Source: Caldifarciminota bacterium (GTDB lineage Bacteria; Hydrothermota; UBA3072). Taken from it: a stretch of 64,000 nucleotides of DNA. The notes below the pieces were generated by a model. The model worked only from the letters and a program-made list of their open reading frames with translations. It had not been told where the DNA came from and made no database searches. Positions within the stretch are counted from its first letter, which is position 1. The number at the start of each line of letters is the position of its first letter. The stretch covers positions 1 to 64,000 of the forward strand of contig JAFGHJ010000013.1 in the NCBI GenBank assembly GCA_016930175.1, read 5' to 3'. Made by a program: the position numbers and the translations under genes. This document shows positions 11,050 to 39,160 of the stretch, one piece after another.

Positions 11050-11203
11050 TGCTCGGCAATATTATTCAGAAAACGCAGTCGATTTCCCCTGCGAGGAAAT
11101 CGCTGCTCCCGCTCTCACTTTCGCTCTTTATGATTTTCTTCGAAAATCATAAAGCCGTGCCCGCTCAAGTTCCGAGAGGGTTTCTGAATAATATAGCCTC
11201 GCA
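11050..11203 (+). repeat. Structured repeat element, copy A
   Basis: Nested stems: outer arms 11059-11072 and 11181-11194 (14 perfect pairs, with more imperfect pairs to 11050/11203); hairpin P2 11080-11087/11095-11102 with loop CCTGCGA; hairpin P3 11126-11138/11142-11154 with loop TTC. Between stems are the conserved segments AAAACGCAGTC and TGCCCGCTC...TCCGAGA. It lies between porin and RND genes and would be carried on the operon mRNA. Copies B and C are at 38.9-39.2 kb. Confidence 0.85.
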
Positions 11204-11308
11204 TTTATTTCGAGCGTTAATAGAAAAGAGTTTTGAATTTCTACATGAACATCAATCAATTAACTTTAAAAGAAAAGTTGATTTTAAAGGAGTGAAAGGA
11301 GGTTTGAG

Positions 11309-14038
11309 ATGAGAGATAAATTACTTAAGGCTTGGGGACGTTTTTCGATGACTCATCCATGGCAGGTTTTAATCGGGCTTTTCCTTGTGGCAGTGATTTG
11401 TTTGGTATCTGTGGCATATCTATCCGCAACCAAAAGATTCACAATGGAGATGAGCTGGTCTGATATGCTGCCGGCGAATGACACGATGGCAGAGGAATTC
11501 GACAGAATTTTAAAGGAATTCCGTAGCGCTTCGAATACAATAGTAGTGGTTCGGGGTGAGGAGAAGGAGATAAAAAGATTTGCCGATGAAATAGCTCCGA
11601 AAATCGAGAAACTTACAGAGTATGTTGATGAAGTGTACTATAAAATCGATAAAGACTTCCTTGCCCGGCACGGGTTTATGCTTATTAAGGAAAAGGATCT
11701 GGAAAGCACCGCCGATATGTTCGCTAATTTGAATCTTATACCTCTTTTAGAGAATATAAACGATAATTTCGAAGAAGAATACGTTGGAGACGAGGAGGCG
11801 CTCAGCACGAAACAAAAAGAAGATGAAGCGGTCAGATCCCTCGACGGTTTCCAGTACTGGATTTCTACAATGGATGAGTTTATTAGCAATCCCGAGAAAG
11901 CGGATGAGGAATTAACGGTGAAAGCGATTGATAGATTTCTTTACGGAGACCCTTACTTTATTTCTCAGGATAAAAGAATTCTTTTGATGACTGTAAAGCC
12001 GACTTTTACCGAGATGGACATAGAAAAAGACGTGGCCTCAACCGATTCTATATATTCGATTATAAACAAGACTTTAGAGAGGTATCCTAACGTCAAAGCA
12101 GGTCTTACCGGCAATATACCTCTCCAGCGGGACGAAATGTATTACACTCAAAGAGACATGACTTTAGGATTTATACTTGCTATAATCCTGGTTATGCTGC
12201 TATTTATTTTAACTTTCAGGATGTTAAGCGTTCCAATACTTGCAGGAGTTAACCTTATACTCGCTATTATAATTACTGTGGGGCTTGTTGCTATTTATCC
12301 GGGAAGATTAAATTTAATGACGGCGATGTTCGGAGTTATTCTGATTGGGCTTGGTATTGATTACGCAATTCATATTATTTCATTGTACAGTGAACGTAGG
12401 ACGATAGATAAGGATGCCCCAACCGCAATGGCAGAGGCTCTTGTTCGCTCAGGAGGAGGAATTATAACCGGGGCTTTAACTACCGCGGCAGCTTTTTTTA
12501 CCCTTTCTGTATCGGTGACGAGAGGTATAAAAGAGATGGGCATTGTTCTCGGTATGGGTATAATATGCGCTATGGTTGTAACAATGATTGGATTGCCTGC
12601 TTTTCTTTCCGCAATGGAAAGATTCTCGTCGAAGTTCATAAAAAGGCCTTTTCAGCCCAGACATATTGAGTTTACTGCTTTAGAAAATTTTGGAAAAAGT
12701 GTAAGTAAGCACCCTTTGAGATATCTTTTAATCGGCTTTGGGCTTACCGGTTTTTTCTTCTATCAGTATAAATACAGGTTAAAATTTGATTATAATATGC
12801 TCAATATCGAACCGAAAGGTCTCCCTACGGTAATGCTTCAGGATACAATAGTTGACGCTTTTGATCTTGCTATCGATTATGCAATGGTTACTGCCTCTAC
12901 AATTGAGGAGTCTTATACTCTGGCTGAAAAGGCAAAAGAAATGCCTTCCTTTTCGATGGTTGAGAATATAGGAGATTTCTGCCCTCCGTTGGATAAGCAG
13001 AAAAAAAGGGTCGTTTACTTAAATAAAATAAGGAATTTGTTAGACAAAAACAAGAAAAGTATTCCGATATCATCGGGTAACCTTAAGGATTTAATAGAAC
13101 AGTTAGAGCGGCTTGATATGAACATTTATGAACTTTCTCAGCTCGCATTTTTAGGTGGTCAGGATAAAGTCGATGAAAAATGTAAAAGTATAATTGGGAA
13201 CCCGGAGTCCGATAATACGGAGAGCATTATTTTGAATCTTGTGGATAAAATAAAGGAAAATCCCGCGGTTTCTATTCGTAGGCTAAACAAATTTCAAAAG
13301 TTATATGAGCCTTTATTGAGAAAGAAAATTTACGATATGGCTAACCCTGCGTTTTTAACTCTTGATAACATCCCGTATAATATTAAGAGCAGATATGTAA
13401 ACGACGATGAAGATCTTTTTCTTGTAAATATATATCCGAGAGAGTATATTTGGAACTTTGAAAACATGAGAAGATTCAGTAAACAGGTCGAGCTGGTGAG
13501 CGAGAGAGCTACAGGTCTTCCTCCTCTTTTTCTTCGTTTGATTGAATTGATTGGTAGAGATGGAAAGAGAGCAACGGTACTTACTTTATTTATAGTTGTT
13601 CTTCTTTTATGGTTGGATTTCCGAAGTCTTAAACTTGCTCTTTTAGGTATTATTCCTCTCATTGCCGGAGGATTGTGGATGTTGGGACTTCTTTCGAGTT
13701 TTGGTATGATGCTTACAGTGGTCAATGTAATCGGTATACCGATGATAGTTGGGATAGGGATTGATGACGGGGTTCATATATTGCACCGGTATAGGGTAGA
13801 GGGATTTAGCGAGACGCCACATGTGCTTTTGAGTACAGGTAAAGCGGTTCTCCTTACTTCTCTTACCACAATGGCGGGTTTTGGTTCCCTTATGATTTCC
13901 AAATATAGAGGTTTTATCGGTCTTGGCGCCCTTCTTGTTTTCGGTGTAGGCGCGTGTTTTATTACAACCGTTCTCTTTATGCCTGCTATAATAAATATCG
14001 CGGAAATAATAATTAAGAAGAAATCTTCTAAAGAATAA
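11309..14038 (+). CDS. MMPL/RND-family exporter (HAE3-like)
   Basis: Inner-membrane proton-driven transporter. The 909-residue product has the RND two-fold plan: TM1 near 18-38, a periplasmic domain to about 275, TM2-6 near 285-430, then TM7 near 475, a second periplasmic domain, TM8-12 near 750-900. Each half carries the MMPL signature in its TM4-like helix: GLGIDYAIHI (first half) and GIGIDDGVHILHRY (second half). Such pumps of about 900 residues export hydrophobic compounds or lipids. ATG follows AAAGGAGG. With the LolA-like protein and porin it makes a complete inner-to-outer-membrane route under TetR control. Substrate unknown. Confidence 0.93.
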   Translation: MRDKLLKAWGRFSMTHPWQVLIGLFLVAVICLVSVAYLSATKRFTMEMSWSDMLPANDTMAEEFDRILKEFRSASNTIVVVRGEEKEIKRFADEIAPKIEKLTEYVDEVYYKIDKDFLARHGFMLIKEKDLESTADMFANLNLIPLLENINDNFEEEYVGDEEALSTKQKEDEAVRSLDGFQYWISTMDEFISNPEKADEELTVKAIDRFLYGDPYFISQDKRILLMTVKPTFTEMDIEKDVASTDSIYSIINKTLERYPNVKAGLTGNIPLQRDEMYYTQRDMTLGFILAIILVMLLFILTFRMLSVPILAGVNLILAIIITVGLVAIYPGRLNLMTAMFGVILIGLGIDYAIHIISLYSERRTIDKDAPTAMAEALVRSGGGIITGALTTAAAFFTLSVSVTRGIKEMGIVLGMGIICAMVVTMIGLPAFLSAMERFSSKFIKRPFQPRHIEFTALENFGKSVSKHPLRYLLIGFGLTGFFFYQYKYRLKFDYNMLNIEPKGLPTVMLQDTIVDAFDLAIDYAMVTASTIEESYTLAEKAKEMPSFSMVENIGDFCPPLDKQKKRVVYLNKIRNLLDKNKKSIPISSGNLKDLIEQLERLDMNIYELSQLAFLGGQDKVDEKCKSIIGNPESDNTESIILNLVDKIKENPAVSIRRLNKFQKLYEPLLRKKIYDMANPAFLTLDNIPYNIKSRYVNDDEDLFLVNIYPREYIWNFENMRRFSKQVELVSERATGLPPLFLRLIELIGRDGKRATVLTLFIVVLLLWLDFRSLKLALLGIIPLIAGGLWMLGLLSSFGMMLTVVNVIGIPMIVGIGIDDGVHILHRYRVEGFSETPHVLLSTGKAVLLTSLTTMAGFGSLMISKYRGFIGLGALLVFGVGACFITTVLFMPAIINIAEIIIKKKSSKE

Positions 14039-14059
14039 AAAAAGATGGAGGGTAGCGAT

Positions 14060-14542
14060 ATGTCAGATAGGATTTCTGTCTGGGGGATTGGATTTAAGTT
14101 TACTGCCTTGTCTTTAGGATATTCATTTGCGATTATTTTTATTAATTATTTTACTTATCCTTTATTTTATATCAAGTTCTTAGAGTACAGGATATTCTTA
14201 ATCTCGGGTATTGTTCTGATAGTTCTTGGGCTGCCTTTATTTATAATTTCAGGGTTTTCTGTGCATAGAGCGTATGCTGAAGATGTTTTAAGAACAAGAG
14301 GGGTTTATTCTATATGCAGGCACCCTTTGTATGCTTCTTTTATTTTCTTTATTGTTCCGGGAATTTGCCTCTTGTTTAAATCCTGGATAGCATTCTCTGT
14401 CCCTTTCGTGATGTATGTATTCTTCAGGATCTTAATAAAGGAAGAGGAAGATTACTTGAGTAAAAGGTTTAGTTCTGAGTATGAAAAGTATAAAAGAAAA
14501 GTGCTTCTCGCATTTCCGAGAATTTGGAGGTATGAGAAGTAA
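14060..14542 (+). CDS. Isoprenylcysteine carboxyl methyltransferase (ICMT)-like membrane protein
   Basis: About 160 residues, four or five membrane segments. The C-terminal half has the ICMT/PEMT methyltransferase signature: RTRGVYSICRHPLYASF, then a hydrophobic stretch, then LIKEEEDYLSKRFSSEYEKY and a terminal FPRIWRY. These proteins bind S-adenosylmethionine in the membrane and methylate lipophilic substrates; bacterial members mostly have unknown targets. ATG at 14045 is possible, but GGAGGG at 14047-14052 supports 14060. It follows the RND gene by 21 bases and probably ends that operon, which would suit modification of an exported lipid (inference). Confidence 0.85.
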   Translation: MSDRISVWGIGFKFTALSLGYSFAIIFINYFTYPLFYIKFLEYRIFLISGIVLIVLGLPLFIISGFSVHRAYAEDVLRTRGVYSICRHPLYASFIFFIVPGICLLFKSWIAFSVPFVMYVFFRILIKEEEDYLSKRFSSEYEKYKRKVLLAFPRIWRYEK

Positions 14543-14793
14543 TTGTAGTAGTGATACCACAAAGCCTGGACAACTCAATTGTTACGAGTCAATAACTAGG
14601 ATTTGGGATTTGGGATTTAATATTAATAATTATGAATTCTGAATTTTGAATCTTGAATTAAAACAAACAAAAAACTTTGTGTTCTTTGTGGCTTTGTATG
14701 AGATTAATTTGGGGATGTGGGTCGGGTCTTAAACAACACATTCTTTCTTTGTGTCTTGGTGCCTTTGTGGCTGAAAATAAAAAGGTCTTTCTA

Positions 14794-15456
14794 TCAAATG
14801 AAAATTTTTATCAGGTATGCAATAAGAAGCGCGAGAGAAAAGCTGAAGAGCGTTCCAATAAGAATATATTCCGCTTCCTTTCTTCTCGAATGGTCTTTTA
14901 TTTCTCCGAATCTGAAAATCGTTTTAGCTGTTATTAAAAAGGCGATAGCCATTACATTACCGCTTAAGACAAAGATGTAAATCAGCGTTCTCTCTAAAAT
15001 TCCTATCCATAGCCCCGCTTTTTCAAGACCTTTGGCTTCTTTTATTTGCTTCCTGAAAGGTTCGGTGGCGAGGCCAATTATATACCCGGAAGGCCAGATT
15101 AGTATAATAAACCCAAGGATTACTAATAGTACTCTTTTAGAGTTCCATAAGATTATTACAAGAGCAAAAAGGAAGGATAAATAGGTATCTGTGAGCAAAA
15201 GCCATATCGCGACCAATGTAAATATAAGCAATATCTGGCTTAAGAAGAAATTAAAGAGAGTTCTTCTTTTCGGTATCATAATCAGGTATGCCAGAAAGTG
15301 AGCAACAAATACGAGCGGCAGAATCCATAAATCTGCCCAGGAGAAAGAAATGAGGTATATTGATAGTGCGTAAATGGCTCCGGAAATATATAGCCACCTG
15401 GATCTTATTTTTTTCTTCTTTACATGATTGGTTAAATTTTTGAATGCGAATATCAA
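14794..15456 (-). CDS. DUF3307-family membrane protein (SatE-like)
   Basis: At least 220 residues with six or more hydrophobic segments. The C-terminal FGEIKDHSRRKEAEYILIGTLFS is like the end of DUF3307 proteins, and the gene directly follows a SatD-family gene, the known pairing, which supports the call. TTG at 15456 is the first ordinary start, but the frame runs upstream with family-like sequence (ILLHILIIHSAVSL), and a GGAG at 15520-15517 precedes ATT/ATA codons at 15516-15508. The true start may therefore be a non-AUG codon near 15516-15510, or CTG at 15489. Function unknown. Confidence 0.75.
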   Translation of the reverse strand: MIFAFKNLTNHVKKKKIRSRWLYISGAIYALSIYLISFSWADLWILPLVFVAHFLAYLIMIPKRRTLFNFFLSQILLIFTLVAIWLLLTDTYLSFLFALVIILWNSKRVLLVILGFIILIWPSGYIIGLATEPFRKQIKEAKGLEKAGLWIGILERTLIYIFVLSGNVMAIAFLITAKTIFRFGEIKDHSRRKEAEYILIGTLFSFSLALLIAYLIKIFI

Positions 15457-15546
15457 GCTGACTGCCGAGTGAATTATCAGTATATGCAGTAAAATATTAA
15501 TATCGTTTATAATAATCTCCGAAACCTATAATTAGTTTTATAGTCT

Positions 15547-16206
15547 TCATAACTTATAATTTTTATCAAGCAAATGTTTAAACAGTTCGAAAGATTCGCT
15601 CAATGTGAAATGACCTCCAAGCTGAAGTCTCTGATTAACTGCGGGTTGGGAAATCTTCAATTTTTTACTGATAGAAATCTGAGTATCGCCTTTTAGCCAT
15701 AAAAGTATAGCTTCAGCCTGCTCAGTAGACCAGCGCCGGGTTATCGAGTCTATAGAAGAAGAAATAAATTCAAGTTGTTTATTCAATTCATCGATACCGG
15801 ACTTTATGGAGAACCTTCTGTATTTCGATATATTATCGAGAGCGTTACCGGATAATCTGAATGCTTCGCCGTCGCTTTCCTTTAAGTTTTTTCTATTAAG
15901 CGATTCTATATTTCCTATACCTATGGCAATTCTAGCGTCAATACTTTTTCCTTTTATCGTGTTACTTAAAAGCTCAGCTTTTAAATATATTGCAATCTCC
16001 AGAGCATGTTTCGGCTCTGAAATTACTATCTGGAAAGAGTCACCTCTGAAGATATCGGAGATTCCTTCAATGCTTTTACCTCTAAAATCGCTGAGAGAAT
16101 TTAGCGCGTCTTTTAATATTTTCAGAGCTTTCTCTCTTTCTCTGCCGAATTTGCCGGATTTTACAATATCACCGGTAATAACCGCATATATCTTATCTTT
16201 ACCCAT
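15547..16206 (-). CDS. SatD-family protein
   Basis: The 219-residue product begins YAVITGDIVKSGKF, the SatD family hallmark, with RGDSFQIVISEP and DARIAIGIGNIE resembling a nucleotidyl-cyclase-like fold, and ends in a helix-turn-helix (about 165-200: WLKGDTQISISKKLKISQPA, then VNQRLQ). SatD is named from an acid-tolerance operon of streptococci; its biochemical role is not known. The C-terminal HTH suggests DNA binding. ATG follows AGAGG, with a promoter at 16233-16261. The DUF3307 gene follows directly. Confidence 0.85.
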   Translation of the reverse strand: MGKDKIYAVITGDIVKSGKFGREREKALKILKDALNSLSDFRGKSIEGISDIFRGDSFQIVISEPKHALEIAIYLKAELLSNTIKGKSIDARIAIGIGNIESLNRKNLKESDGEAFRLSGNALDNISKYRRFSIKSGIDELNKQLEFISSSIDSITRRWSTEQAEAILLWLKGDTQISISKKLKISQPAVNQRLQLGGHFTLSESFELFKHLLDKNYKL

Positions 16207-16232
16207 TATAAACCTCTAATATTATATTCTAT

Positions 16233-16261
16233 ATTATAAGTCTAAAAGGCTATAATGTCAA
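16233..16261 (-). promoter_or_regulatory. Promoter of the satD-DUF3307 pair
   Basis: Minus strand TTGACA at 16261-16256, 17-base spacer, TATAAT at 16238-16233. Confidence 0.75.
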
Positions 16262-16269
16262 GGGGGAAG

Positions 16270-16560
16270 TTTTATTTTAGTTGGTGTGTTGGTGGGTTGG
16301 CGTGTTAGTGTGTGTGAAAAAAACAGACCAACGGACTAACAGACTAATAGACCAACAGTTTAGGTCCTCTGTGTACTCTGTTGCTTTGTGTGAGATTAAT
16401 TTGTGGTTGTGTGGGGGTTTTTTAAACAACAAAAAATCTCTGTGTCCTCTGTGAATAAATTAGTCATAAGTCACTGGTCGCTAGTCATTAGTCAAAAAAA
16501 TAAAAAAAATCAGTGATAATCTGTGAAAGCTCGTGGTTACAATTGGGAGTAGTGTAGGGG
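16270..16560. repeat. Phrase-like intergenic repeats
   Basis: Fills most of the 397-base gap between satD and proB. It holds degenerate phrases such as TTGGTGGGTTGGCG, ACAGACCAACGGACTAAC, CTCTGTGTCCTCTGTG and AGTCATAAGTCACTGGTCGC. The same phrases recur, in either orientation, near 25.9, 49.5, 55.2, 56.3 and 57.6 kb. No gene seen. Confidence 0.7.
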
Positions 16561-16567
16561 AGCGCTC

Positions 16568-16595
16568 TTGACAAATAATTTCACGGGTTTATATT
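16568..16595 (+). promoter_or_regulatory. Promoter of proB, leaderless arrangement
   Basis: TTGACA at 16568-16573, 16-base spacer, TATATT at 16590-16595. Only 8 bases separate it from ATG at 16604, so transcription should start at or within 2 bases of the start codon. No ribosome site is present. Confidence 0.75.
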
Positions 16596-16603
16596 CATAA
16601 AAA

Positions 16604-17743
16604 ATGGGAAATAAAAAGTATAAAAGAATTGTTGTAAAAGTCGGCAGCTCCACCATAACTCACTCCGTCGGCAAACTTAACCTTACCATGATAGACAATA
16701 TTGTGAGACAGCTGGTCGACCTTAAGAATAAGGGCAAAGAGGTAATTCTTGTGACTTCCGGTGCGATAGGAGCCGGCATGGGAGAGTTAGGGTGTGAGAA
16801 AAGGCCCAAGTTGATACCAAAGCAGCAGGCGATGGCTGCAATAGGTCAGGGGCTTTTGATTGGCGTTTACAATAGGCTTCTGCGTGAATACGGAGAAAAA
16901 GGAGCTCAGGTTTTGCTTACTTCAAGTGACCTTGAAGACAGGGACAGGTATTTGAATGCTTTTAACACTTTAATCACTCTCCTGGAGTATGGAGTTATAC
17001 CTATTGTCAACGAGAATGATACTGTAGCGACTAATGAGATTAAATTCGGTGATAATGATACTCTCTCAGCCAGGGTGGCGAGTCTCGCCGAAGCTGATGT
17101 TTTGTTAAATTTAAGCGATGTTGAGGGCCTTTATAAGGGGGACCCTTCGAAGGCAACCGAATCGCTTGAAATTATACACAAAGTCGAGCAAATCACACCT
17201 GAGATTGAAAGCTTAGCCGGAAGTAATAAAGGAAGCGAGGTTAGTATCGGAGGTATGACCACCAAGATAGAAGCCGCTAAGGCAGCTGTCGATTCAGGTA
17301 TAATAATGGTTATTGGTCCCGGCTACAGAAAAAACGTTATTGTCGATCTGGTGAATATGCTTGAAAATGAGGAAGAATACAATCTGGGAACAACTTTTTT
17401 GCCTTCGAAAGGTTGTCTTTCCAAAAGGAAGCAGTGGCTGAGTTTTAATGTTCCTATTTGCGGTAGTATTACAGTGGATAGAGGAGCCGAAGAAGCTCTT
17501 GTTAATAAGGGGAAAAGTTTGTTGCCTGGAGGCGTTAAAGAGGTTAACGGCGTTTTTTCCACAGGTGGTCTGGTCAAGATACTTAATGAAGATGGAAGGG
17601 AAATAGGAAAAGGTCTCGTGGATTACTCGAGTGCGGAAATAGAAAAAATTAAGGGACATCATTCCAGTGAGATTTTTTCGATTCTGGGCTATATAAATCA
17701 GGAAGAGGTAATCCATAGAAGGAATATGGTTATAGGGGGTTAA
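16604..17743 (+). CDS. proB: Glutamate 5-kinase
   Basis: First step of proline synthesis: ATP-dependent phosphorylation of glutamate. The 379-residue product has the amino-acid kinase domain (VVKVGSSTIT at 8-17, VTSGAIGAG, NENDTVATNEIKFGDNDTLS, LNLSDVEGLY, GGMTTKIEAA) and a C-terminal PUA domain (about 290-370). Length is typical. ATG at 16604 lies just after a promoter without a ribosome site, so the transcript seems leaderless. proA follows after 3 bases. The neighbouring citrate-to-2-oxoglutarate genes supply the glutamate skeleton. Confidence 0.97.
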   Translation: MGNKKYKRIVVKVGSSTITHSVGKLNLTMIDNIVRQLVDLKNKGKEVILVTSGAIGAGMGELGCEKRPKLIPKQQAMAAIGQGLLIGVYNRLLREYGEKGAQVLLTSSDLEDRDRYLNAFNTLITLLEYGVIPIVNENDTVATNEIKFGDNDTLSARVASLAEADVLLNLSDVEGLYKGDPSKATESLEIIHKVEQITPEIESLAGSNKGSEVSIGGMTTKIEAAKAAVDSGIIMVIGPGYRKNVIVDLVNMLENEEEYNLGTTFLPSKGCLSKRKQWLSFNVPICGSITVDRGAEEALVNKGKSLLPGGVKEVNGVFSTGGLVKILNEDGREIGKGLVDYSSAEIEKIKGHHSSEIFSILGYINQEEVIHRRNMVIGG

Positions 17744-17746
17744 AAG

Positions 17747-19006
17747 ATGGATGTAAAGAAAGCGGTTATTGTTCAGGGTAAAAAAGCAAAAGAAGCCTCA
17801 AGGATACTGGCTAACACCTCTACGGATATTAAAAATAAAGCGTTACTTAACATAGCCCGGAAACTTGAAGAATCAAAGAAAAAGATAATTTCGATTAACG
17901 ATAAAGATATGAATGCCGGAAAAAAAGCCGGTTTCGCAAAATCACTTTTGAACAGATTGGAATTGAATGAAAAGAGGATAAATAGTATGGCAAAGGGTCT
18001 CCGTGAAGTGGTGCAATTGGAAGACCCTATTGGTGAGGTCATAGGAATTAAAAGAAGACCCAATGGGCTTGAAGTGGGTAAAATTAGAGTTCCTCTTGGA
18101 GTCATAGGCATTATTTATGAGGCTAGACCTAATGTAACAGTGGATGTCGCCGGGCTTTGTCTTAAAGCCGGTAATGCCGTACTTCTAAGGGGAGGGAAAG
18201 AGGCATTCAAATCGAATCAGATTCTAACAGAGATAATTCAACAATCTATTGTTGAAGAAGGGTTGCCCTGTGAATCGGTTCAGTTAGTGCAGACAACCGA
18301 CCGTGCTGCCGTCAGTGTTATGTTTAAAATGAATGATTATCTCGATGTTTTAATTCCCAGGGGCGGAGCTGGTCTTATAAAGCGAGTTGTGCAGGAGTCG
18401 AGCGTTCCCGTTATTGAAACCGGCGTGGGTAATTGTCATGTGTATGTCGATTCTTCGGCTGATATAGATATGGCTCTTAGAATCGTTTATAACGCGAAAA
18501 CCGATTATCCTGCGGTTTGCAATGCTGCCGAAACTCTTCTTATACATAAAGATATAGCTGAAAAATTTCTACCTTTAATCTATAAAAAGTTTTCTGAAAA
18601 TAACGTAGAGCTAAGGGGATGTGCTGTGTCGAGGAAAATAATACCCGATATTAAGAAAGCTACTGAAGATGACTGGTATGAGGAATATCTGGATCTTATT
18701 ATGGCGGTTAAGATAGTAGACAGTATCGATGATGCTATAAACCATATTTATAAGTACGGCTCAAAGCATTCCGAATCTATTGTAACCAGTAATTATAATG
18801 ATGCGAATAAGTTTTTAAAAGAAGTGGATGCCGCCGCTGTTTATGTTAATGCTTCAACCCGCTTTACCGACGGTGGTGAATTTGGCCTGGGAGCCGAAAT
18901 CGGAATAAGCACTCAGAAGTTGCATGCGAGGGGCCCCATGGGCTTGAAAGAACTAACCTCCACTAAATTCATAATTAGAGGTAGCGGACAGATAAGGGAA
19001 ACCTGA
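17747..19006 (+). CDS. proA: Glutamate-5-semialdehyde dehydrogenase
   Basis: Second step of proline synthesis: NADPH-dependent reduction of glutamyl phosphate to the semialdehyde. The 419-residue product is full length, with IIYEARPNVTVDVAGLCLKA near 125, RGGKEAFKSN, and the catalytic Cys in TDYPAVCNAAETLL near 255, and NASTRFTDGGEFGLGAEIGI near 370. It follows proB by 3 bases, with its ribosome site inside the proB end (AGGGGG). No proC is in the window. Confidence 0.97.
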   Translation: MDVKKAVIVQGKKAKEASRILANTSTDIKNKALLNIARKLEESKKKIISINDKDMNAGKKAGFAKSLLNRLELNEKRINSMAKGLREVVQLEDPIGEVIGIKRRPNGLEVGKIRVPLGVIGIIYEARPNVTVDVAGLCLKAGNAVLLRGGKEAFKSNQILTEIIQQSIVEEGLPCESVQLVQTTDRAAVSVMFKMNDYLDVLIPRGGAGLIKRVVQESSVPVIETGVGNCHVYVDSSADIDMALRIVYNAKTDYPAVCNAAETLLIHKDIAEKFLPLIYKKFSENNVELRGCAVSRKIIPDIKKATEDDWYEEYLDLIMAVKIVDSIDDAINHIYKYGSKHSESIVTSNYNDANKFLKEVDAAAVYVNASTRFTDGGEFGLGAEIGISTQKLHARGPMGLKELTSTKFIIRGSGQIRET

Positions 19007-19250
19007 TTTAGTTCTTAGTTCGTCGTTCATAGTTCGTAGTTTTTCCACATAGATTCTTCGAGTCTAAGTCAAATAGTATGAATTCTTCGGATTGTTTAAA
19101 TAGAAAAATAGCAAAATAGTAAAATAGTTAAAAAAAAACAGAAAACTCTGTGTACTCTGTGGTAAACAATTTAAGGTTAGGGGGTTGCAGAAAAACCCGA
19201 GACATATAATTTATCTGTGTATTTTAAAAATTAAGGAAGGGTAAGAGAAA

Positions 19251-20423: not shown

Positions 20424-20426
20424 AGT

Positions 20427-28472: not shown

Positions 28473-28485
28473 ATAAGGAGGAGTT

Positions 28486-29707: not shown

Positions 29708-29743
29708 TTTGGCTGAAATTTATAACCTTAAAGGAGGTTTTTT

Positions 29744-30739: not shown

Positions 30740-30755
30740 AAGGTAAGCTGATTTC

Positions 30756-30808: not shown

Positions 30809-30832
30809 TAAGAATATATAAGGAGGCTATAA

Positions 30833-31660
30833 ATGAAAAAGTTAGGAATGTTTCTTTCCTTATTTGTGCTTATGAGTGCAGTGTTTACGGGCGGTAATGC
30901 ACTTTATGCTGCTTCAAAGAGTATAACTATAACCGGTTCGACAACCGTTTTACCGATCGCTCAGATGGCTGCCGAGGCTTTCATGGATATTCATCAGGAT
31001 ATTTCCGTGTCAGTCAGAGGCGGAGGTTCCGGTGTAGGTATAGCTGCGCTTATTGACGCAAGGGCTGACATTGCTGATGCATCAAGATCTATAAAGACAA
31101 AAGAAATTAAGCTTGCCAGAGAAAAAGGGATAGATCCTTACGCAAACGTGGTGGCGAGAGACGGTATTGCTGTAGTTGTTCACCCAGATAATCCGTTGGA
31201 TTCGATTAGTATTGAAGATCTTAAGAAGATTTATACCGGAGAAATTGAAAACTGGAAAGACCTTGGGGGTCCAAGCAAATCTATTGTTGTTATATCGAGA
31301 GATTATTCATCGGGTACTTTTGAAGTTTTTAAGGAATTGGTCCTCGAAGGTGCTAAGGTGATAGACGGAGCGTTGATGCTGGCTTCAAATAAGGCTGTTT
31401 CTACTACTGTCTCAACAACTCCTAATTCTATTGGTTACATAGGTCTTGGTTATCTTTCAGAGGATGTTAAAGCCCTTAAAGTAGATGGGGTAAAGGCAAG
31501 TGAAGAGACAGTTAAGAAAGGAGAATATAAGCTGGCGCGTCCTCTTTTTATGTATACCAATGGAGAACCCAAAGGTATAATAAAGACCTTTATTGATTTT
31601 ATTTTTTCTCCGCAGGGGCAGAAAATAGCGAGGGAAGTGGGATACGTTCCTGTTAAGTAG
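30833..31660 (+). CDS. pstS: Phosphate ABC transporter, substrate-binding protein
   Basis: Periplasmic phosphate receptor of the Pst transporter. The 275-residue product has a signal peptide ending NALYAASK, then ITGSTTVLPIAQ near 31-42, the phosphate loop SVRGGGSGVGIAAL near 61-74, RDYSSGTFEVFKEL near 162 and TTPNSIGYIGLGYL near 196. ATG follows AAGGAGG. A GC-rich stem-loop separates it from pstC, consistent with the usual excess of PstS over the membrane components. Confidence 0.96.
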   Translation: MKKLGMFLSLFVLMSAVFTGGNALYAASKSITITGSTTVLPIAQMAAEAFMDIHQDISVSVRGGGSGVGIAALIDARADIADASRSIKTKEIKLAREKGIDPYANVVARDGIAVVVHPDNPLDSISIEDLKKIYTGEIENWKDLGGPSKSIVVISRDYSSGTFEVFKELVLEGAKVIDGALMLASNKAVSTTVSTTPNSIGYIGLGYLSEDVKALKVDGVKASEETVKKGEYKLARPLFMYTNGEPKGIIKTFIDFIFSPQGQKIAREVGYVPVK

Positions 31661-31700
31661 TTTTTAGGAGAAATAATAACAGTATTTAAGTTTAAAAAAC

Positions 31701-31729
31701 GGGGGTGGGATTAAATTAGTCCCACCTCC
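31701..31729 (+). other. Stem-loop between pstS and pstC
   Basis: Twelve-pair stem 31701-31712/31718-31729 with two G-T wobbles and a 5-base loop. No T run follows, so it should stabilise pstS mRNA or partly attenuate read-through rather than terminate. Its 3' arm contains CCACCTCC, the same sense as the anti-Shine-Dalgarno, and pstC 15 bases on has no ribosome site. Confidence 0.7.
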
Positions 31730-31743
31730 AAAAATTGTGAAAA

Positions 31744-32613
31744 ATGATTAAAGAAAAACTTTTTAAATACTTAACCCTAACAGCAGCTCTATGCTCGGTT
31801 GTTTTTCTTTTTGGTATAATATTCAGTATATTCAAAGAAGGATATTCTATATTCGCCGAAGTAGGATTTTTTAAGTTCATATTTGGTAGATCCTGGCATC
31901 CTACGCACTATCCTCCAGAGTTCGGAATTTTGCCTTTAATTGTAAGTTCAATATTGGTTACAGCGGGCGCGCTGTTAGTATCGGTCCCTCTTGGTGTTGG
32001 GTCGGCAATTTATATTTCCGAGCTTGCGCATCCAAAAGGAAAGGAAATTTTGAAACCAATAGTGGAACTTCTTGCTGGTGTTCCATCTGTAATTTACGGT
32101 TTATTCGGAATGGCATTTTTAGGACCTTTCATAAGCAGAGTTTTTGGTTTGCCGGTTGGGTTAAATGCTTTAAACGCTTCAATAATTCTTGGGGTAATGG
32201 TTGTACCCATAATATCGAGCATCTCTGAGGATGCGTTAAATTTAGTGCCAAGGCAGCTAATAGAGGCATCTTACGCACTCGGAGCCAATAAATGGGAAAC
32301 AATAATAAGAGTAATATTACCAGCTGCTAAATCCGGAGTGATCTCTTCGATTGTGTTAGGGTTTGGTAGGGCTATAGGAGAGACGATGGTTGTATTGATG
32401 GTAGCTGGAGGTGCTACTTCTATCCCACGTTCTATATTCAGGCCTGTTAGACCGATGACTTCAGCAATAGCAGCAGAAATGGGAGAGACAACCATGGGGA
32501 GCTCTCATTTACATGCCTTATTCGGAATAGCAATAGTACTTTTTGTGATAACATTTATTTCTAACTTGATAACAGAATGGGTGATGAGAAATAGAGGTAA
32601 AAATGGGGCTTAG
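31744..32613 (+). CDS. pstC: Phosphate ABC transporter permease
   Basis: First membrane subunit of the Pst importer. The 289-residue product has six membrane segments, the PstC N-terminal FKEGYSIF...FGRSWHPTHYPPEFGILPL region, ELLAGVPSVIYGLFGMAFLG near 109 and the EAA loop [20 protein letters not shown] near 176. ATG at 31744 has no ribosome site. Its end overlaps pstA by 11 bases. Confidence 0.95.
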   Translation: MIKEKLFKYLTLTAALCSVVFLFGIIFSIFKEGYSIFAEVGFFKFIFGRSWHPTHYPPEFGILPLIVSSILVTAGALLVSVPLGVGSAIYISELAHPKGKEILKPIVELLAGVPSVIYGLFGMAFLGPFISRVFGLPVGLNALNASIILGVMVVPIISSISEDALNLVPRQLIEASYALGANKWETIIRVILPAAKSGVISSIVLGFGRAIGETMVVLMVAGGATSIPRSIFRPVRPMTSAIAAEMGETTMGSSHLHALFGIAIVLFVITFISNLITEWVMRNRGKNGA

Positions 32614-33457
32614 AAAATTAAAAGAAATTTTAGGAATAAATTTGCTAAGATTAACAATATTCATAAGCATATTATTTTTATTCCTATTTATTATTCTTAT
32701 TTTTGCAAAAGGTGCAAAAATGCTTTCTTTTTCTTTCTTAACTCAACCTCCAAAATCAGGAATGACAAAAGGCGGAATATTTCCAGCTATAATCGGTACT
32801 CTGTATTTAACTATTTTCTCTGTTTTATTCGCTTTCCCTATAGGTGTACTTTCTTCAATTTATCTTGTGGAATACGCAAAAAAGAATTTTCTTGTAACTA
32901 TTATAAGAACGGCAATAGGTACACTGGCTGGTGTTCCTTCAATAATTTTTGGTCTTTTTGGTCTGGCAATTTTTGTTATAACCTTTGGATTCGGCGTCTC
33001 CATACTTTCTGGGTCTTTGACTTTAGGAATAATGATTCTTCCGGTCATTATTAAAGCGTCTGAAGAAGCTATAAAAGCAGTTCCGGACAGTTTCCGTGAG
33101 GCCTCATACGCTCTCGGAGCTACCAAGAGGCAAACTATAATAAAGGTAGTTATTCCTACAGCTATACCCAGTATATTAACCGGCGCAATAATGAGTATTG
33201 GAAGAGCTGCCGGAGAAACCGCTCCTATTTTGTTTACAGCAGCTACTTTCTACACAAGGAAACTTCCAACCTCTATTTTTGATGAGGTAATGGCACTTCC
33301 TTATCATATATATGCTCTGATGACCGAGGGGACTGCCCCTGAATATCAGGTTCCTATTGCTTACGGCACATCGGTTGTGCTTCTGGGGCTTGTGCTTGTA
33401 ATCAGTTCGGTTTCAATTATTATTAGATTCAGGATGAGGAGAAAAAAGAAATGGTAA
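32603..33457 (+). CDS. pstA: Phosphate ABC transporter permease
   Basis: Second membrane subunit, paired with PstC. The 284-residue product has six membrane segments, [19 protein letters not shown] near 46, [18 protein letters not shown] near 106 and the EAA loop [20 protein letters not shown] near 168, plus [15 protein letters not shown] near 201. It overlaps pstC by 11 bases and pstB by 7, so translation is coupled along the operon. Confidence 0.95.
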
Positions 33458-34209
33458 AGAATGAGCTTAAAGTTGAAAAACTTAATCTCTGGTTTGGAGA
33501 AAAGCAAATCTTAAAAGATGTTACTTTTTCCATACCAGACAAAAAGATAACTGCGATTATTGGACCTTCCGGCTGTGGTAAGACTACACTCCTTAGATGT
33601 TTTAACAGGATGAACGATATGACAGATAACGTTAAGATTAAAGGGAAAATCATCCTGGATGGTTGTAATATATATGAAGAAAAAACAAATTTATCTTCTC
33701 TCAGAATGAAAGTTGGTATGGTTTTTCAGAGACCCAACCCATTTCCGAAATCCATTTTTGAGAATGTGGCTTTCGGATTGCGTGTTAAGGGTTTCAAAGA
33801 TAAAACAAGGTTGACGGAAATAGTCGAGAAAAGTTTAAAAGACGCCTGGTTGTGGAATGAGGTTAAGGACAGGCTTAATTCTTCTGCGATGGAGCTTTCG
33901 GGTGGACAGCAGCAGAGGTTGTGTATCGCTCGCGCGCTTGCTACAAATCCGGAAGTTATACTTTTTGACGAGCCGACTTCCGCGCTTGACCCACAAGCTA
34001 CTGCCAAAATAGAAGAACTTAGCGTTGAGTTAAAGAATTCGGTAACAGTTGTTCAGGTAACGCATAACATTGGACAGGCTGCCAGGATTTCCGATTATAC
34101 CGCTTTTTTGTATCTTGGAGAATTAGTCGAATTCGGTATTTCGGAGAAGTTATTCACAGTTCCTCAGGATAAAAGAACCGAGGAATACCTCGGAGGAAAA
34201 TTTGGTTAA
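33451..34209 (+). CDS. pstB: Phosphate ABC transporter ATP-binding protein
   Basis: ATPase of the Pst importer. The 252-residue product has Walker [20 protein letters not shown] near 35, Q-loop [20 protein letters not shown] near 90, signature [15 protein letters not shown] near 150, Walker [14 protein letters not shown] near 171 and switch His in [19 protein letters not shown] and RPNPFP are PstB hallmarks. Starts inside the end of pstA. Confidence 0.97.
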
Positions 34210-34221
34210 GAAGGGGGAAAA

Positions 34222-34878
34222 ATGCTTGATGAAAGAATGAAATCGTTAAAAAAGGAAATTGTAAACTATGCTTCTCTTGTTGAGTCTATGATAGAAGAAA
34301 GCATAGCGGGTTTATCAAAAAGAGATAAAGCTTTATTGGAATCAGTTATGAAAGAAAAAGAAAATAAAGCGAACAATCTTGAAATGCTGATAGAGGAGCA
34401 CTGCATTGAGATTATTGCTCAGTTCGAGCCAAGAGCTAAAAATTTGAGGTTGATTTTGATGATTCTGAAAATGAACAATGATCTGGAAAGAATGGCTGAT
34501 CATGCGGTGAATATTGCCGATAGCGCTTCTTTTTTGATAAAACTAAAAAAGGAAGAATCTATGGAAGAGATCTTAAATCTATCAAATGAAACCAAAGAGA
34601 TGTTAAAGGATAGCATTGATTCTTTTATTGATGGAGATACAAAGAAAGCAAAGAAAGTTTGCCAGAGGGATGATGTTGTTGATAAGATAAGAGATAAGAT
34701 AATTAAAACTTCAGTTGTGAATATGTGTTCGGATCTCGATTCTCTTGATTCGGTTGATCAAAGAGTTCACATAATGAGAATAGCTAAGAATTTAGAAAGG
34801 ATAGCGGATCTTTCTACCAACATTTGCGAAGATACGATATACATGGTAGAAGGCAAAGATATAAAGCACGGAAAATAG
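34222..34878 (+). CDS. phoU: Phosphate signalling regulator PhoU
   Basis: The 218-residue helical protein has two PhoU repeats of three helices, with metal-site-like motifs NNDLERMADHAVNIADSA near 89-106 and IAKNLERIADLSTNICEDT near 190. It couples Pst occupancy to PhoR and keeps the kinase inhibited when phosphate is plentiful. ATG follows AAGGGGGAA, 12 bases after pstB. Confidence 0.95.
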   Translation: MLDERMKSLKKEIVNYASLVESMIEESIAGLSKRDKALLESVMKEKENKANNLEMLIEEHCIEIIAQFEPRAKNLRLILMILKMNNDLERMADHAVNIADSASFLIKLKKEESMEEILNLSNETKEMLKDSIDSFIDGDTKKAKKVCQRDDVVDKIRDKIIKTSVVNMCSDLDSLDSVDQRVHIMRIAKNLERIADLSTNICEDTIYMVEGKDIKHGK

Positions 34879-34976
34879 TATACGGAGAAAGTCTGAAACT
34901 TCAGAAATATAGTTTTATCCCTTTACTTTTTTCAAGATTCTTCGTAGAATAATAAATAGATTTTTTTGGAGGATAA

Positions 34977-35660
34977 ATGGGTAAATTAATTGCTGTTGTG
35001 GATGATGAAGCGGATATTGTAGAACTTGTTTCAGTCAACCTTGAAAAGGCAGGCTTTAAAGTCGAAGGTTTCTACAACGCGAATGACCTTTTAAGTTTTA
35101 TAAAGAAGAAAACACCGGATCTTATTATTCTTGACTTAATGCTACCGGATGCCGACGGATTCGAAATTTGCAAGAACCTGAAAAGTCAAGAAAAATATAC
35201 CAACATTCCTGTCATAATGCTTACTGCTAAAGGCGAAGAAGTAGATAAAGTTGTGGGGCTTGAAATAGGAGCAGATGATTACGTAACAAAGCCTTTTTCT
35301 ACAAGAGAATTGGTCGCCAGAGTTAAAGTAGTTTTAAGAAGAGGAGAAAAGGAAGAAGAACCGAAAAAATCAATAAAAATCGGAGAAGAAATCGAGATTT
35401 TTCCCAAGGAATATAAAGTATTGATTTCCGGAAAAAAGATAGAACTTACTTCGACTGAGTTTAGGATTCTTCATTTACTCGCAAAGAGGAAAGGATGGGT
35501 TTTTTCAAGGGATCAGATTCTGGATTATCTCTATGAAGGAGATAGGATAGTTTTTGACCGGACAATCGATGTGCATATAACTCATCTCAGGGATAAACTC
35601 GGTAAATTCGGAGAGTGCATTAAGAGTATAAGAGGTATTGGTTATAAAATAGAGGAATGA
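34977..35660 (+). CDS. Phosphate response regulator (PhoB/PhoP type)
   Basis: OmpR-family activator. The 227-residue product has a REC domain (DDEAD near 8-12, acceptor Asp near 54 in LIILDLMLPDADGFE, VIMLTAKGEE, Lys in VTKPFSTREL) and a winged-helix DNA-binding domain (about 130-227; LTSTEFRILHLLAKRKGWVF, DRTIDVHITHLRDKLG, IKSIRGIGYKIE). It is 98 bases after phoU, behind TTTGGAGG, and overlaps the kinase gene by 4 bases. The TTAACA-type boxes upstream of the porin and pstS are its probable targets. Confidence 0.93.
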   Translation: MGKLIAVVDDEADIVELVSVNLEKAGFKVEGFYNANDLLSFIKKKTPDLIILDLMLPDADGFEICKNLKSQEKYTNIPVIMLTAKGEEVDKVVGLEIGADDYVTKPFSTRELVARVKVVLRRGEKEEEPKKSIKIGEEIEIFPKEYKVLISGKKIELTSTEFRILHLLAKRKGWVFSRDQILDYLYEGDRIVFDRTIDVHITHLRDKLGKFGECIKSIRGIGYKIEE

Positions 35661-37396
35661 AAAAAAATATTTTTTTTCGTATTTTTATAAGTCATTTACT
35701 ACTAGCTTTCGGAATTTCTTTATTGCTTGTTGCTTTTTCTTTTAGGTTGGTTAAGAAACATTATATTGAAACCCTTACTAATGATCTTGAAAAAATTGCT
35801 CTTGCTCTGGATAAGACGTTAAGACCCTATATTGCATTAGGAGATTTTTCTACGCTTGATTCTGTTGTTAAAAATATGGGTAAAAAAATCGAAGTTCGGA
35901 TTACCGTCGTTGATTCAAAAGGGGTTGTTTTAGCGGATTCTGAAGAAGACCCTGAAAAGATGGAAAATCACGGAATGCGGTCGGAGATATTGCCGGCTTT
36001 TTACGGTAAAACCGGGTCTTCCTTGCGATTTAGTGAAACGGTTAAAGAGGAGATGCTATATGTTGCAATTCCCATTAAGGATAATACCGATAATTTGATG
36101 GGAGCGTTAAGAGTAAGTCTTTTTTTAACGCAAATTCAAGAGCTTCTGAGTTACATAATGAGAAATGTGATAATTATAGCTGCTCTGCTCACCGTTTTTT
36201 CTCTCTTAGCGGCTTTCTTCTATGCTAAATCACTGGCAAGGCCCATAAGGAAGCTTGCTGTCGCGGCTGATGAGGTAGCCGGCGGCAATTTTAATATAGA
36301 AATTTTAACTGAAGGCACAGGAGAGATAAGCCGTCTTACAAGGAATTTTAACGACATGGTTGTACGCATAAGAGAATTAATCTCCGAACTATCCGAGCAA
36401 AAAGATTCCCTAAAAGTTATTGTTTCTTCGATAAAAGAAGCCCTTATTGTTATTAACGCAGAGGAAAAAATAGTGATAATGAATGATAGTTTTAGAGAAA
36501 TTTTTAAAAGCGGCGAAATAAAAAATAAGATTTATTGGGAAGTCATAAGAGAGCCTAAATTTGAAGAAATAATTGAAGAAATAAATAAAGACAAAAAAGA
36601 TTTAACCAGAGAAATACGAATTCATGACAGAGATTTCATATGCAGTGCAGCTTTCCTGGAAAAGTATAATGAAATTGTTGTCACTCTTCATGAAATAACA
36701 GAGATCAAGAGTGCAGAGAGGATTAAGAAAGATTTTATCTCGAATGTTTCTCATGAGCTTCGAACACCTCTGACTGCTATTAAAGGTTTTGTTGAGACTC
36801 TTCTTAGTACAGCGAAGAAAGAAAATAAGCGTTACCTCGAAATAATTGGCAGGCAAACCGACAGGCTTATAAATATTGTAAAGGATTTGCTAAAGCTTTC
36901 CGAACTCGAAGATATAGAGGAGGGTAAGCTCGACATAAATTTATCAAAAGTTGATTTGAAAGAAATTATAAGTAATGTTCTGAGTATTTATGAAAAAGAA
37001 ATAAACAATAAAGGCTTAAAATCGATTGTTGAGATTGACAAAAACGTTTCCAAAATTAAAGCTGATCCTTTTAAGCTTGAACAACTTTTCATAAACATGA
37101 TTGAGAATGCGATTAAATACACAGAAAAAGGCGAAATAAAAATAGTTGTGAAAAGAGATAAAAAATCGGTTTTGATTGAGGTTTCGGACACGGGAATTGG
37201 TATAGCCCGTAAGCATTTGTCTAGAATTTTTGAGCGGTTTTATGTCGTTGATAAATCGCGTTCTAGAGAATCAGGAGGAACAGGTCTGGGTCTTTCGATT
37301 GTAAAACATATCGTTCAATTACATAAGGGCGAGATAACCGTCGATTGCAAGCTCGGAACAGGTACAAAGTTCATAATTGTTTTACCAATAAATTAA
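35657..37396 (+). CDS. phoR: Phosphate sensor histidine kinase (PhoR type)
   Basis: The 579-residue membrane kinase has TM1 near 9-28, a periplasmic domain of about 135 residues with VVDSKGVVLADSEEDP, TM2 near 170-192, HAMP near 193-245 (KSLARPIRKLAVAADEVAGG), a PAS-like domain (ISSIKEALIVINAEEKIVIM-like region near 255-345), HisKA with acceptor His in NVSHELRTPLTAIKGF near 368, and HATPase (MIENAIKYTEKGE, DTGIGIARKHL, GGTGLGLSIVKHI). Partner of the adjacent regulator; starts in an ATGA overlap. Confidence 0.93.
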   Translation: MKKNIFFRIFISHLLLAFGISLLLVAFSFRLVKKHYIETLTNDLEKIALALDKTLRPYIALGDFSTLDSVVKNMGKKIEVRITVVDSKGVVLADSEEDPEKMENHGMRSEILPAFYGKTGSSLRFSETVKEEMLYVAIPIKDNTDNLMGALRVSLFLTQIQELLSYIMRNVIIIAALLTVFSLLAAFFYAKSLARPIRKLAVAADEVAGGNFNIEILTEGTGEISRLTRNFNDMVVRIRELISELSEQKDSLKVIVSSIKEALIVINAEEKIVIMNDSFREIFKSGEIKNKIYWEVIREPKFEEIIEEINKDKKDLTREIRIHDRDFICSAAFLEKYNEIVVTLHEITEIKSAERIKKDFISNVSHELRTPLTAIKGFVETLLSTAKKENKRYLEIIGRQTDRLINIVKDLLKLSELEDIEEGKLDINLSKVDLKEIISNVLSIYEKEINNKGLKSIVEIDKNVSKIKADPFKLEQLFINMIENAIKYTEKGEIKIVVKRDKKSVLIEVSDTGIGIARKHLSRIFERFYVVDKSRSRESGGTGLGLSIVKHIVQLHKGEITVDCKLGTGTKFIIVLPIN

Positions 37397-37560
37397 CCAC
37401 AAGAAATAATTATCTCACACAAAGAGTACAAAGACACAAAGGAAAACAACTAAAAATATTTATGTTTTTTTAAAACCCAATTCTACCCCAAAAACTAAGA
37501 GAAACAACAAATCACACGAATGGCACGAATAGAAGAATGCCCATTTTGAGGTTTGTATTA
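37397..37560. repeat. Phrase-like intergenic repeats after phoR
   Basis: CTCACACAAAGAGTACAAAGACA and ACAAATCACACGAATGGCAC; the first phrase recurs at 49561-49585. Nothing gene-like. Confidence 0.6.
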
Positions 37561-37603
37561 TAAAAATATAATATTTAGATTGATTAAGAATTTAAGAATT
37601 TAC

Positions 37604-38086
37604 TTAGTCTCGTATATTTCCCTTAATTAATTCTATAGCTTTTTTAAATGCTTCTCGATTTCCGATTCTTACTATTTCTACTTTTGAGTCATCTTTTTTG
37701 ATTATAATCATTTTATCTGATTCGGATATTGAATTTGTCCAGGGAGGTGCTCCAATAAATCTATAAAAAAAATCTTTAGAACTGAAATACCCTTCTAAGT
37801 ATTTAACACTTTTTATATCACTGTATTTATATTCCTGATATTCATTTAATATTTTAAAGTAACCGTGTCTTTCTATGAAAAATTTTTCGTAATCTACTTT
37901 AAGCTCTTTTGTTTTTATAAATACCGACATAAATATTATGTATAAGCCTAATAATAAAATAAGTGGAGATACAAGAGGTGAAGATATAAGATAAATTAGA
38001 TAAAAGCACCCAATACCTAGGCCAATCAATAAGGATCTAAAGAACATTGGCCAAAAGTAATTATCTTTAACTTCGTATATTACCAT
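37604..38086 (-). CDS. Small membrane protein, PH-like, unknown function
   Basis: The 160-residue product starts with VIYEVKDNYFWPMFFRSLLIG, has two membrane helices (about 16-34 and 40-54), then a cytoplasmic domain of about 100 residues with alternating strands and a final helix (NREAFKKAIELIKGN). Two helices followed by a small beta-domain is the plan of bacterial PH-like or YcxB-like membrane proteins. It is AT-rich and stands alone between phoR and the phosphoesterase. ATG follows AAAGGAGTT. Weak family call. Confidence 0.7.
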   Translation of the reverse strand: MVIYEVKDNYFWPMFFRSLLIGLGIGCFYLIYLISSPLVSPLILLLGLYIIFMSVFIKTKELKVDYEKFFIERHGYFKILNEYQEYKYSDIKSVKYLEGYFSSKDFFYRFIGAPPWTNSISESDKMIIIKKDDSKVEIVRIGNREAFKKAIELIKGNIRD

Positions 38087-38099
38087 AAAACTCCTTTAT

Positions 38100-38337
38100 T
38101 TTTTTAAAACTAATGAGACCCGCTTATTTGATATTCTCATATATAATATTTTTGAATCGAATTTTTATTCAACAAATTAGAGTTATTTATAGTTAAAGAA
38201 TTTCTCTTTTTTCTTTGTATCTTTGTGCTCTTTGTGTGATATTATTTTTGTGGTTGGGGGTGTGGTGTTAAACAACAAAAAAGTCTCTGTGTTCTCTGTG
38301 AGTTTTTTGTTTTTTCTCTGTGACCTCTGTGGTAATT
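38100..38337. repeat. Phrase-like intergenic repeats
   Basis: Contains TTTGTGCTCTTTGTGTG, CTCTGTGTTCTCTGTGAG and CTCTGTGACCTCTGTGGT. A 71-codon frame at 38223-38438 is made largely of these repeats and is not taken as a gene. Confidence 0.65.
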
Positions 38338-38814
38338 TTACAATTCCACAATTTCGCATTCAGGTTTTTCGAGGTCGATTATCGCGAAAGTTGCTTTTCC
38401 CGAAAGATAGCCGCATAATTCGCCCGGATTTACTGTAAGCGGGTCTTCTTTGACATAATATTCGTGGGTGTGCCCATGAAGAACTATGTCATAAATGCCG
38501 CTTTTTCTGAATGCTTCCAGTTGGTAAGGTTCGTGCATAATTGCTATTTTTCTTCTTTCGATAGTAATAGCTTTGGGTGCTCTGTCGATTTCAAAGCCGC
38601 ACTCGTTAGCTTTTTTCTGCAGAAATAATTTATCTCCGTCATTGTTGCCGAAGATTGCGTATACCTTTTCTATTTTAAGAAGTGGTAATGAGAAAGGAGA
38701 ACAATAATCCCCTAGGTGTATAAGGTTTGTTATATTCCTTTCTTTTAAGATATTTATAACTTTTTTTATGTTTTCAAGATGGTCATGCGTGTCAGATATT
38801 ACTCCTATTTTCAT
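38338..38814 (-). CDS. YfcE/MJ0936-family metallophosphoesterase
   Basis: Small dimetal phosphodiesterase or phosphatase. From ATG at 38814 it has 158 residues with the full metal set: GVISDTHDHLENI near 4-16, LIHLGDYCSPF near 36, GNNDGD near 60, MHEPYQ (in place of the usual HG) near 94 and LHGHTHEYY near 112, then NPGELCGYLSG. The GNND and GHTH motifs define the family. A frame extension to 38826 exists, but GGAGG at 38822-38826 supports 38814. A weak TTGAAT-16-TACTTT promoter lies at 38835-38862. Confidence 0.9.
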   Translation of the reverse strand: MKIGVISDTHDHLENIKKVINILKERNITNLIHLGDYCSPFSLPLLKIEKVYAIFGNNDGDKLFLQKKANECGFEIDRAPKAITIERRKIAIMHEPYQLEAFRKSGIYDIVLHGHTHEYYVKEDPLTVNPGELCGYLSGKATFAIIDLEKPECEIVEL

Positions 38815-38834
38815 AATTTCCTCCATTCGGATTA

Positions 38835-38862
38835 AAAGTAATTAAATCGGAGAAAAATTCAA
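38835..38862 (-). promoter_or_regulatory. Probable promoter of the YfcE-like gene
   Basis: Minus strand TTGAAT at 38862-38857, 16-base spacer, TACTTT at 38840-38835, 20 bases before the start codon. Weak match but the spacing equals the other promoters here. Confidence 0.4.
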
Positions 38863-38881
38863 GGAGGTTTTTTTGAAGTCA

Positions 38882-39160
38882 TAGGTATTGGAATCCGAGA
38901 AAGACGTGGTCAATTTTCCCAGCGGGAAGATTCGTAAGGGGTACTGTTCGAGAAAAACGGAGTCAATTCTCCCAGCGAGAGAATTGCTCCTTAGCTCTCG
39001 CTCTCACTCTTTCCGATTTCTCCGAAATCGAAAAACCTTGCCCGTTCGAGCTCCGAGATATTTTCCTGAACAGTACCCCTTACTCATTGGATTGTTTTTT
39101 TAAAAAGTCCATGCCCGCTCACCCTCCGAGACGCTTTCCTGGACAGCACTTCTTGCTCAT
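38882..39160 (+). repeat. Structured repeat element, copy C, interrupted by copy B
   Basis: Left part 38882-38933: outer arm, AAAGACGTGGTC, hairpin P2 (38912-38918/38926-38932, loop CCAGCGG, one wobble pair). Right part from about 39089: P3 (39089-39097/39102-39110), TGCCCGCTC...TCCGAGA, TTTCCTG, and the right outer arm 39141-39151 ending CTTGCTCATT. The outer arms pair at 10 of 11 positions if three bases (38891-38893) bulge out. Copy B occupies the linker between P2 and P3. Confidence 0.75.
38934..39088 (+). repeat. Structured repeat element, copy B, nested in copy C
   Basis: Outer arms 38934-38949/39068-39083 (16 perfect pairs), P2 38964-38971/38979-38986 with loop CCAGCGA, P3 39014-39020/39024-39030 with loop TCC, linkers AAAAACGGAGTC, GCTCTCGCTCTCACTC and TGCCCGTTC...TCCGAGA, end CTTACTCATT. 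Stem sequences differ from copy A at most positions while pairing is kept. Confidence 0.85.

Follow-up and report, generated by a model that had tools for sequence, protein, structure and literature searches.

The window, by which we mean the whole analyzed stretch of 64,000 nucleotides, carries two complete copies (A and B) and the remnant of another (C) of a palindromic element of ~140 to 155 nt. Copy A (11050..11203, minus strand; covariance model match of 132.4 bits) lies in the gap between an open reading frame (9824-11011) and an MMPL-family gene (11309-14038; Pfam MMPL). The two arms of its outer stem P1 (11050..11072 and 11181..11203, listed without a strand) are 87% complementary over 23 nt and enclose the minus-strand hairpins P2 (11075..11106), with a 7-base loop that reads CCTGCGA on the plus strand, and P3 (11126..11154), with perfect arms of 13 bp and a loop of 3 nt. 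Copy B (38934..39083, minus strand), the top match of the covariance model with 163.9 bits, has a metallophosphoesterase gene (38338-38826, minus strand) on one side and an asparaginase_2 gene (39300-40166, plus strand) on the other, both named after their Pfam matches. Its outer stem of 23 nt is 91% complementary, and its hairpins P2 (loop CCAGCGA on the plus strand) and P3 are found at 38959..38990 and 39010..39034 of the minus strand.

Copy B is nested in copy C, which is the outer remnant (~38882-38933 plus ~39084-39160) of a nested pair; the middle of copy C has been replaced by copy B, and its outer stem is largely decayed. Both halves were found on the minus strand with half-element profiles. 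One (38882..38933; L017 h3-1467-1488) contains, read on the plus strand, an outer-stem arm, the ACGTGGTC linker, and the 5' arm and loop of P2, and the other (39084..39160; L017 h5-1671-1706) contains the linkers TGCCCGCTC and TCCGAGA and an outer-stem arm. A preliminary description had listed three copies of one architecture. This is correct for copies A and B, in which the long outer stem, P2 with its 7-base loop, P3, and the common linkers are indeed present, but not for copy C, which is a remnant around the nested copy B and not an independent third copy; furthermore, copy B starts where it had been placed but ends at 39083 and not at 39088. The compensated P2 (AATTTTC/GAAGATT) described for copy C is doubtful, because in our reading of the letters its 3' arm, GAAGATT, would partly be the left flank of copy B (for comparison, further nested copies have GGGTTGATTCGTAAGG and GGTTTATTTCGCAAGG).

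Distribution of the element family

BLAST searches with copies A and B revealed more copies in the same genome, and a covariance model (R1) built from a minus-strand alignment of ten copies found 17 in this WOR-3/Stahlbacteria-type MAG. The preliminary description had proposed such a model and had named, among the observations that would speak against a new element, a lack of further copies in the genome and a match to a known family. Neither of these was made. In addition to the 17 copies in the own genome, all five relatives of the same family (G001 to G005) contained the element, with 2, 9, 1, 27, and 11 copies, respectively, and a search of the window with the 4,227 families of Rfam gave no match at the gathering cutoff. 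At a relaxed E value, no match over the element came near the cutoff of its family in six loci.

The first sample also included 24 genomes from outside this family, and R1 found no copies in them. In a wider sample of the phylum, 6 of 147 genomes were positive, all belonging to this family, and 141 were without copies. Of 380 Patescibacteria genomes, 26 contained the element. A pattern scan of GTDB contigs identified hosts in candidate division WOR-3, Stahlbacteria, TA06, Omnitrophota, Actinomycetota, several Patescibacteria, and Saganbacteria, with each locus confirmed by R1 at E values below 1e-18; 11 other genomes, including those of Actinomycetota, Omnitrophota, and Saganbacteria, had 1 to 22 copies each. 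The pattern scan gave no match in the viral contigs of IMG/VR, and neither did BLAST searches of phages with copy B or of plasmids with one Actinomycetota copy. We found no description of the family in searches of the openly accessible journal literature. The element family is widespread, scattered through the genomes of uncultured bacteria, and, as far as these searches show, undescribed.

Folded structure and outer stems

The consensus of the ten copies on the minus strand has 52 pairs, 34 of which are changed on both sides, a covariation far stronger than the three copies of the preliminary description could give. According to the model, one of the two strands forms a three-way junction that consists of the outer stem P1, a P3-capped arm, and hairpin P2. 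The P3-capped arm follows the pattern CGTCTCGGA-xxxx-GAGCGGGCAyGG / GAGCGA-xxxx-GAGAGC, in which xxxx stands for covarying pairs, with G-A mismatches between the paired segments; the P2 loop on the folding strand is UCGC(U/A)GG, and the conserved unpaired letters lie in this loop and in the linkers. Coupled A-G/G-A positions become Watson-Crick pairs in some copies and, as judged from the alignment, these swaps are consistent with tandem G-A mismatches within the P3 arm. In addition, a short form of ~100 nt is seen (L087, L090, L092, L093, L095, and L098), in which the whole P3 arm is missing and P1, TCTCGGA, and P2 are kept.

The structure derived from WOR-3 copies pairs 95.0% of 5,512 cells in 110 distinct copies from outside WOR-3, compared to 37 to 47% if the partners are slid by 1 to 3 columns, and 1,956 cells are changed on both sides compared to 515 after shuffling. 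Because the copies are related and were aligned by fitting them to the structure, the pairing figures and, somewhat, the G-U counts lean upward, but the gap is still very large. On the modeled strand, G-U pairs exceed A-C mispairs by 267 to 52 in the non-WOR-3 copies and by 199 to 62 in WOR-3; therefore, it is the modeled strand that folds, which corresponds to the minus strand of the window and not to the strand written out in the preliminary description. The consensus energy is also lower on the minus strand.

The core of the element is common to the copies, but the outer stems are not. In the Patescibacteria genome G039 and the near-identical G565, every nonorthologous copy has an outer stem of its own on a common core, and the arms have no exact match of more than 11 nt to any other copy. 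The identity of the arms between copies is 0.20 in G037, 0.28 in G522, 0.32 in G035, and 0.34 in G039 (chance, 0.25), whereas within the copies of these four Patescibacteria genomes the self-pairing is 0.91 to 0.96, and the identity of the core is 0.67 to 0.71. In WOR-3 (0.52 to 0.58) and in an Actinomycetota genome (Yes46-11; 0.77), the arms are partly common to the copies.

Between G039 and G565, many orthologous copies are nearly identical, but several sites carry different hairpins between the same flanks. At site L337/L237, two adjacent elements are replaced; at L152/L319 and at site L321, one of the genomes has a P3 hairpin where the other has an entire nested element; and at sites L323 and L236, the rest of the element is replaced by a second hairpin family. 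Since orthologous sites carry different stems and stems within one genome are unrelated, much of the covariation comes from replacement or new making of whole hairpins. The preliminary description had taken the covariation as the signature of selection on a folded RNA or single-stranded DNA; a structured family with many copies, without an Rfam counterpart and with pairing kept across phyla, is indeed present, but compensatory change is not the sole source of the signal. As a caution, covariation, usually a strong sign of a functional RNA, can come from the replacement of whole stems.

The second hairpin family has the core GCGAAGGCTAAGACTTG...GGAG..AGCCT and a site-specific outer stem (L373, G039:C14:56829-56974; L372, G565:C20:12152-12294), and it occupies, at two orthologous sites, the place of a part of the element. 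At one site, a base palindrome, GGCTAAA/TTTAGCC, is common to two genomes that have different elements on top of it; a preexisting hairpin as the target was considered and dropped, since this palindrome is absent from the other sites.

Template switching can make whole stems in one event and thereby mimic compensatory change (PMC8794818). It may be asked whether the pairing is mainly a by-product of replication, with template switching at imperfect palindromes making and keeping perfect stems without any selection for folding. The whole-stem replacement seen at orthologous sites and the published mechanism argue for this, but it leaves unexplained the loops and linkers conserved across phyla, the dispersed copy number, and the fixed site of nesting, and we regard it as rather unlikely. 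Template switching is better seen as a part of the stem mechanism, overlapping with the mobile element that we favor below.

A few sites bear on the origin of the private arms. In MnmA, and perhaps in the cysteine desulfurase, one arm resembles the native gene sequence and the other its inverted copy, which weakly supports an origin from the target. A search for target-derived inverted repeats in the first of the desulfurase gene sequences and at polymorphic sites was partly suggestive, with one contrary case, the extra insertion in L322 compared to L241, which speaks against such an origin. It is conceivable, but rather doubtful, that the mobile element brings along only a conserved folded core and that each insertion builds fresh terminal inverted repeats by copying the target or other local DNA in inverted form, so that no two copies would have ends in common.

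Insertion between and inside genes

The pair of genes around copy A is ~26 nt apart in G002, which lacks the element at this site, and ~297 nt apart in the window genome (G000), where copy A lies between them. Nests like that of copies B and C are common in the own genome; a complete inner copy takes the place of the segment between the P3 apex and the P2 loop of the outer copy, and inner and outer copies had the same orientation in all nests seen.

Copies are also found in frame within genes for a cysteine desulfurase, MnmA, ParB, and an MBL-fold protein, in both orientations. In the cysteine desulfurase, residues 7 to 171 and 226 to 433 align to residues 9 to 174 and 181 to 384 of a chain of solved structure, and the element, at residues 175 to 223, forms an extra segment of ~49 residues. 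In MnmA, the alignment to the chain ends at residue 148 and restarts at 149, with the element in between. An intron or a translational bypass was considered and dropped, as the copies inside genes are in frame and on either strand. Desulfurase genes of related genomes have further copies, at two positions. One insert is apparently common to G039 and G557; its core is 84% identical, compared to 37% identity at the third codon positions of the desulfurase gene between relatives, and P1 and P3 are changed on both sides and still paired. In parB, two near-identical Patescibacteria genomes differ (L142 versus L327) by an in-frame deletion of 51 bp between TCCGAGAC repeats of nested element halves.

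Dispersal, nesting, patchy distribution, the empty orthologous site, and the in-frame copies in both orientations point to a mobile element and not to a cellular RNA gene. A conserved noncoding or cis-regulatory RNA that has a function in the cell and is transcribed at many loci has to be weighed, since the covariation across phyla, the G-U counts that favor the minus strand, the conserved loops, and the noncanonical coupled pairs would all be expected of it. Furthermore, the conservation of the core across phyla and its retention within the coding gene for the desulfurase over a long divergence could mean selection for function and thus also count against selfish DNA. However, an RNA gene would hardly be present in 1 to 27 dispersed copies with patchy occurrence, at a site that is empty in a relative, in frame in both orientations inside genes, and without a match in Rfam. 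No neighbor gene family common to the elements was found in flanks from 42 genomes, and the neighborhoods in WOR-3 and these 42 genomes contained only ordinary host genes or artifactual open reading frames inside the element. The orientation to neighbors is mixed, and the folded strand is antisense to codirectional genes more often (63 versus 33, p = 0.003, with copies that are not fully independent). A riboswitch or another cis-regulatory element would have a fixed orientation and an association with a gene class, and neither was seen. Altogether, we consider a cellular RNA quite improbable.

Selfish DNA is the best reading of these data. The element is probably a noncoding, palindromic selfish element similar to REP, RPE, or MITE sequences, of which the folded core is recognized and the outer stems are replaced or newly made as wholes. 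In our model, a trans-acting machinery would recognize the core in its folded form, probably that of single-stranded DNA, and then move or copy the element. The outer stems and P3 would be swapped, or formed de novo, as entire hairpins; this may happen when DNA synthesis folds back on itself or switches template, and it may lead to self-matching, copy-specific arms. On the other hand, no transposase or other enzyme tied to the element was found among the neighbor genes and at Y1 loci, which argues against this model. Inspection of the flanks established no clean target-site duplication either, and none is evident at the one insertion site GGAA^TT.

Relation to known palindromic elements

MITEs, ERIC, and similar repeats are nonautonomous and mostly intergenic, with terminal inverted repeats and foldable transcripts (PMC10969869). 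A classical MITE would have arisen from an insertion sequence by deletion and would be moved by a transposase binding to terminal inverted repeats that are conserved between copies. Our element would agree with this in its size, its intergenic position, its nesting, and its possession of terminal inverted repeats, and the partly common outer arms in WOR-3 and Actinomycetota Yes46-11 (0.52 to 0.77), which resemble those of ordinary MITEs, speak against the model with newly made stems. However, several Patescibacteria show the opposite of what is expected of a MITE, namely, a conserved interior and inverted repeats that differ from copy to copy without any relation, and neither a parent insertion sequence nor an adjacent transposase was found within the flanks examined. 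A MITE is thus already strained by the figures for arm identity, and we hold it to be distinctly improbable.

REP elements are hairpins scattered in intergenic regions, and our element resembles them in this respect; recognition as a single strand would also fit its strand asymmetry. Nevertheless, a REP-type element moved as single-stranded hairpins by a Y1 (IS200/RAYT) transposase is very unlikely, since the element is several times longer than REP units and the Y1 gene (PF01797), although present in 13 of 17 element-bearing genomes, also occurs in 5 of 14 control genomes, and four genomes with the element, one of them with 22 copies, lack this gene, since the loci of 30 Y1 genes contained no element, and since at least two Y1 genes of WOR-3 (L175 and L171) have palindromes of their own beside them, such as AAATTACACATTCTGGTCGCGG...AATGTGTAATTT, which differ from our element.

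Going back to the selfish element favored here, its closest analog is probably the Rickettsia palindromic element (RPE), a dispersed palindrome of ~150 bp that is found in intergenic regions and in frame in unrelated metabolic genes (PMC10969869). Judged by the published description, the two are alike in size, palindromic form, dispersal, and in-frame insertion, and our element would work most like an RPE in size and in-frame insertion. It differs in its hosts, which belong to other phyla, in the three-way-junction core that is common across phyla, and in the outer stems, which in several genomes are unrelated from copy to copy. Hairpin and double-hairpin elements of mitochondria are likewise small, potentially mobile, and intergenic or sometimes within genes, but those of sponges have conserved stems and variable loops (PMC2800124), whereas in our element it is the stems that vary and the loops and linkers that are conserved, the core is multibranched, and the hosts are bacteria. 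An integron attC site would have a conserved core site at the base of the stem, and no conserved outer-stem sequence was found (A4).

In the known dispersed palindromic elements compared here, the ends are the part that copies have in common. In our element, the core is common, and in several hosts each copy has ends of its own, and this is seen in very small genomes, even within essential genes. Such private ends imply a so far undescribed way to move or rewrite hairpins.

Further observations concern the arrangement of palindromes around and within the copies. Elements also occur as oppositely oriented pairs separated by 13 to ~125 nt (L119/L137, L232 in G038, L237 in G039, and L144 in G035); their relative orientation was constant in the cases seen, as in REP doublets. 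At L122, two inverted elements are 1.6 kb apart, with only an ordinary kinase-like gene between them. Finally, a second, smaller palindrome of ~50 nt, CCCnnTGGAATAG...CTATTCCAnnGGG, is located within element copies of several WOR-3 genomes, beside CTCG/CGAG (L072, 1708-1744; L080, 99-135; L097, 1524-1560; L023, 1700-1736; L108, 167-203; L059, 75-111), and may be a REP-like element that targets the larger one.
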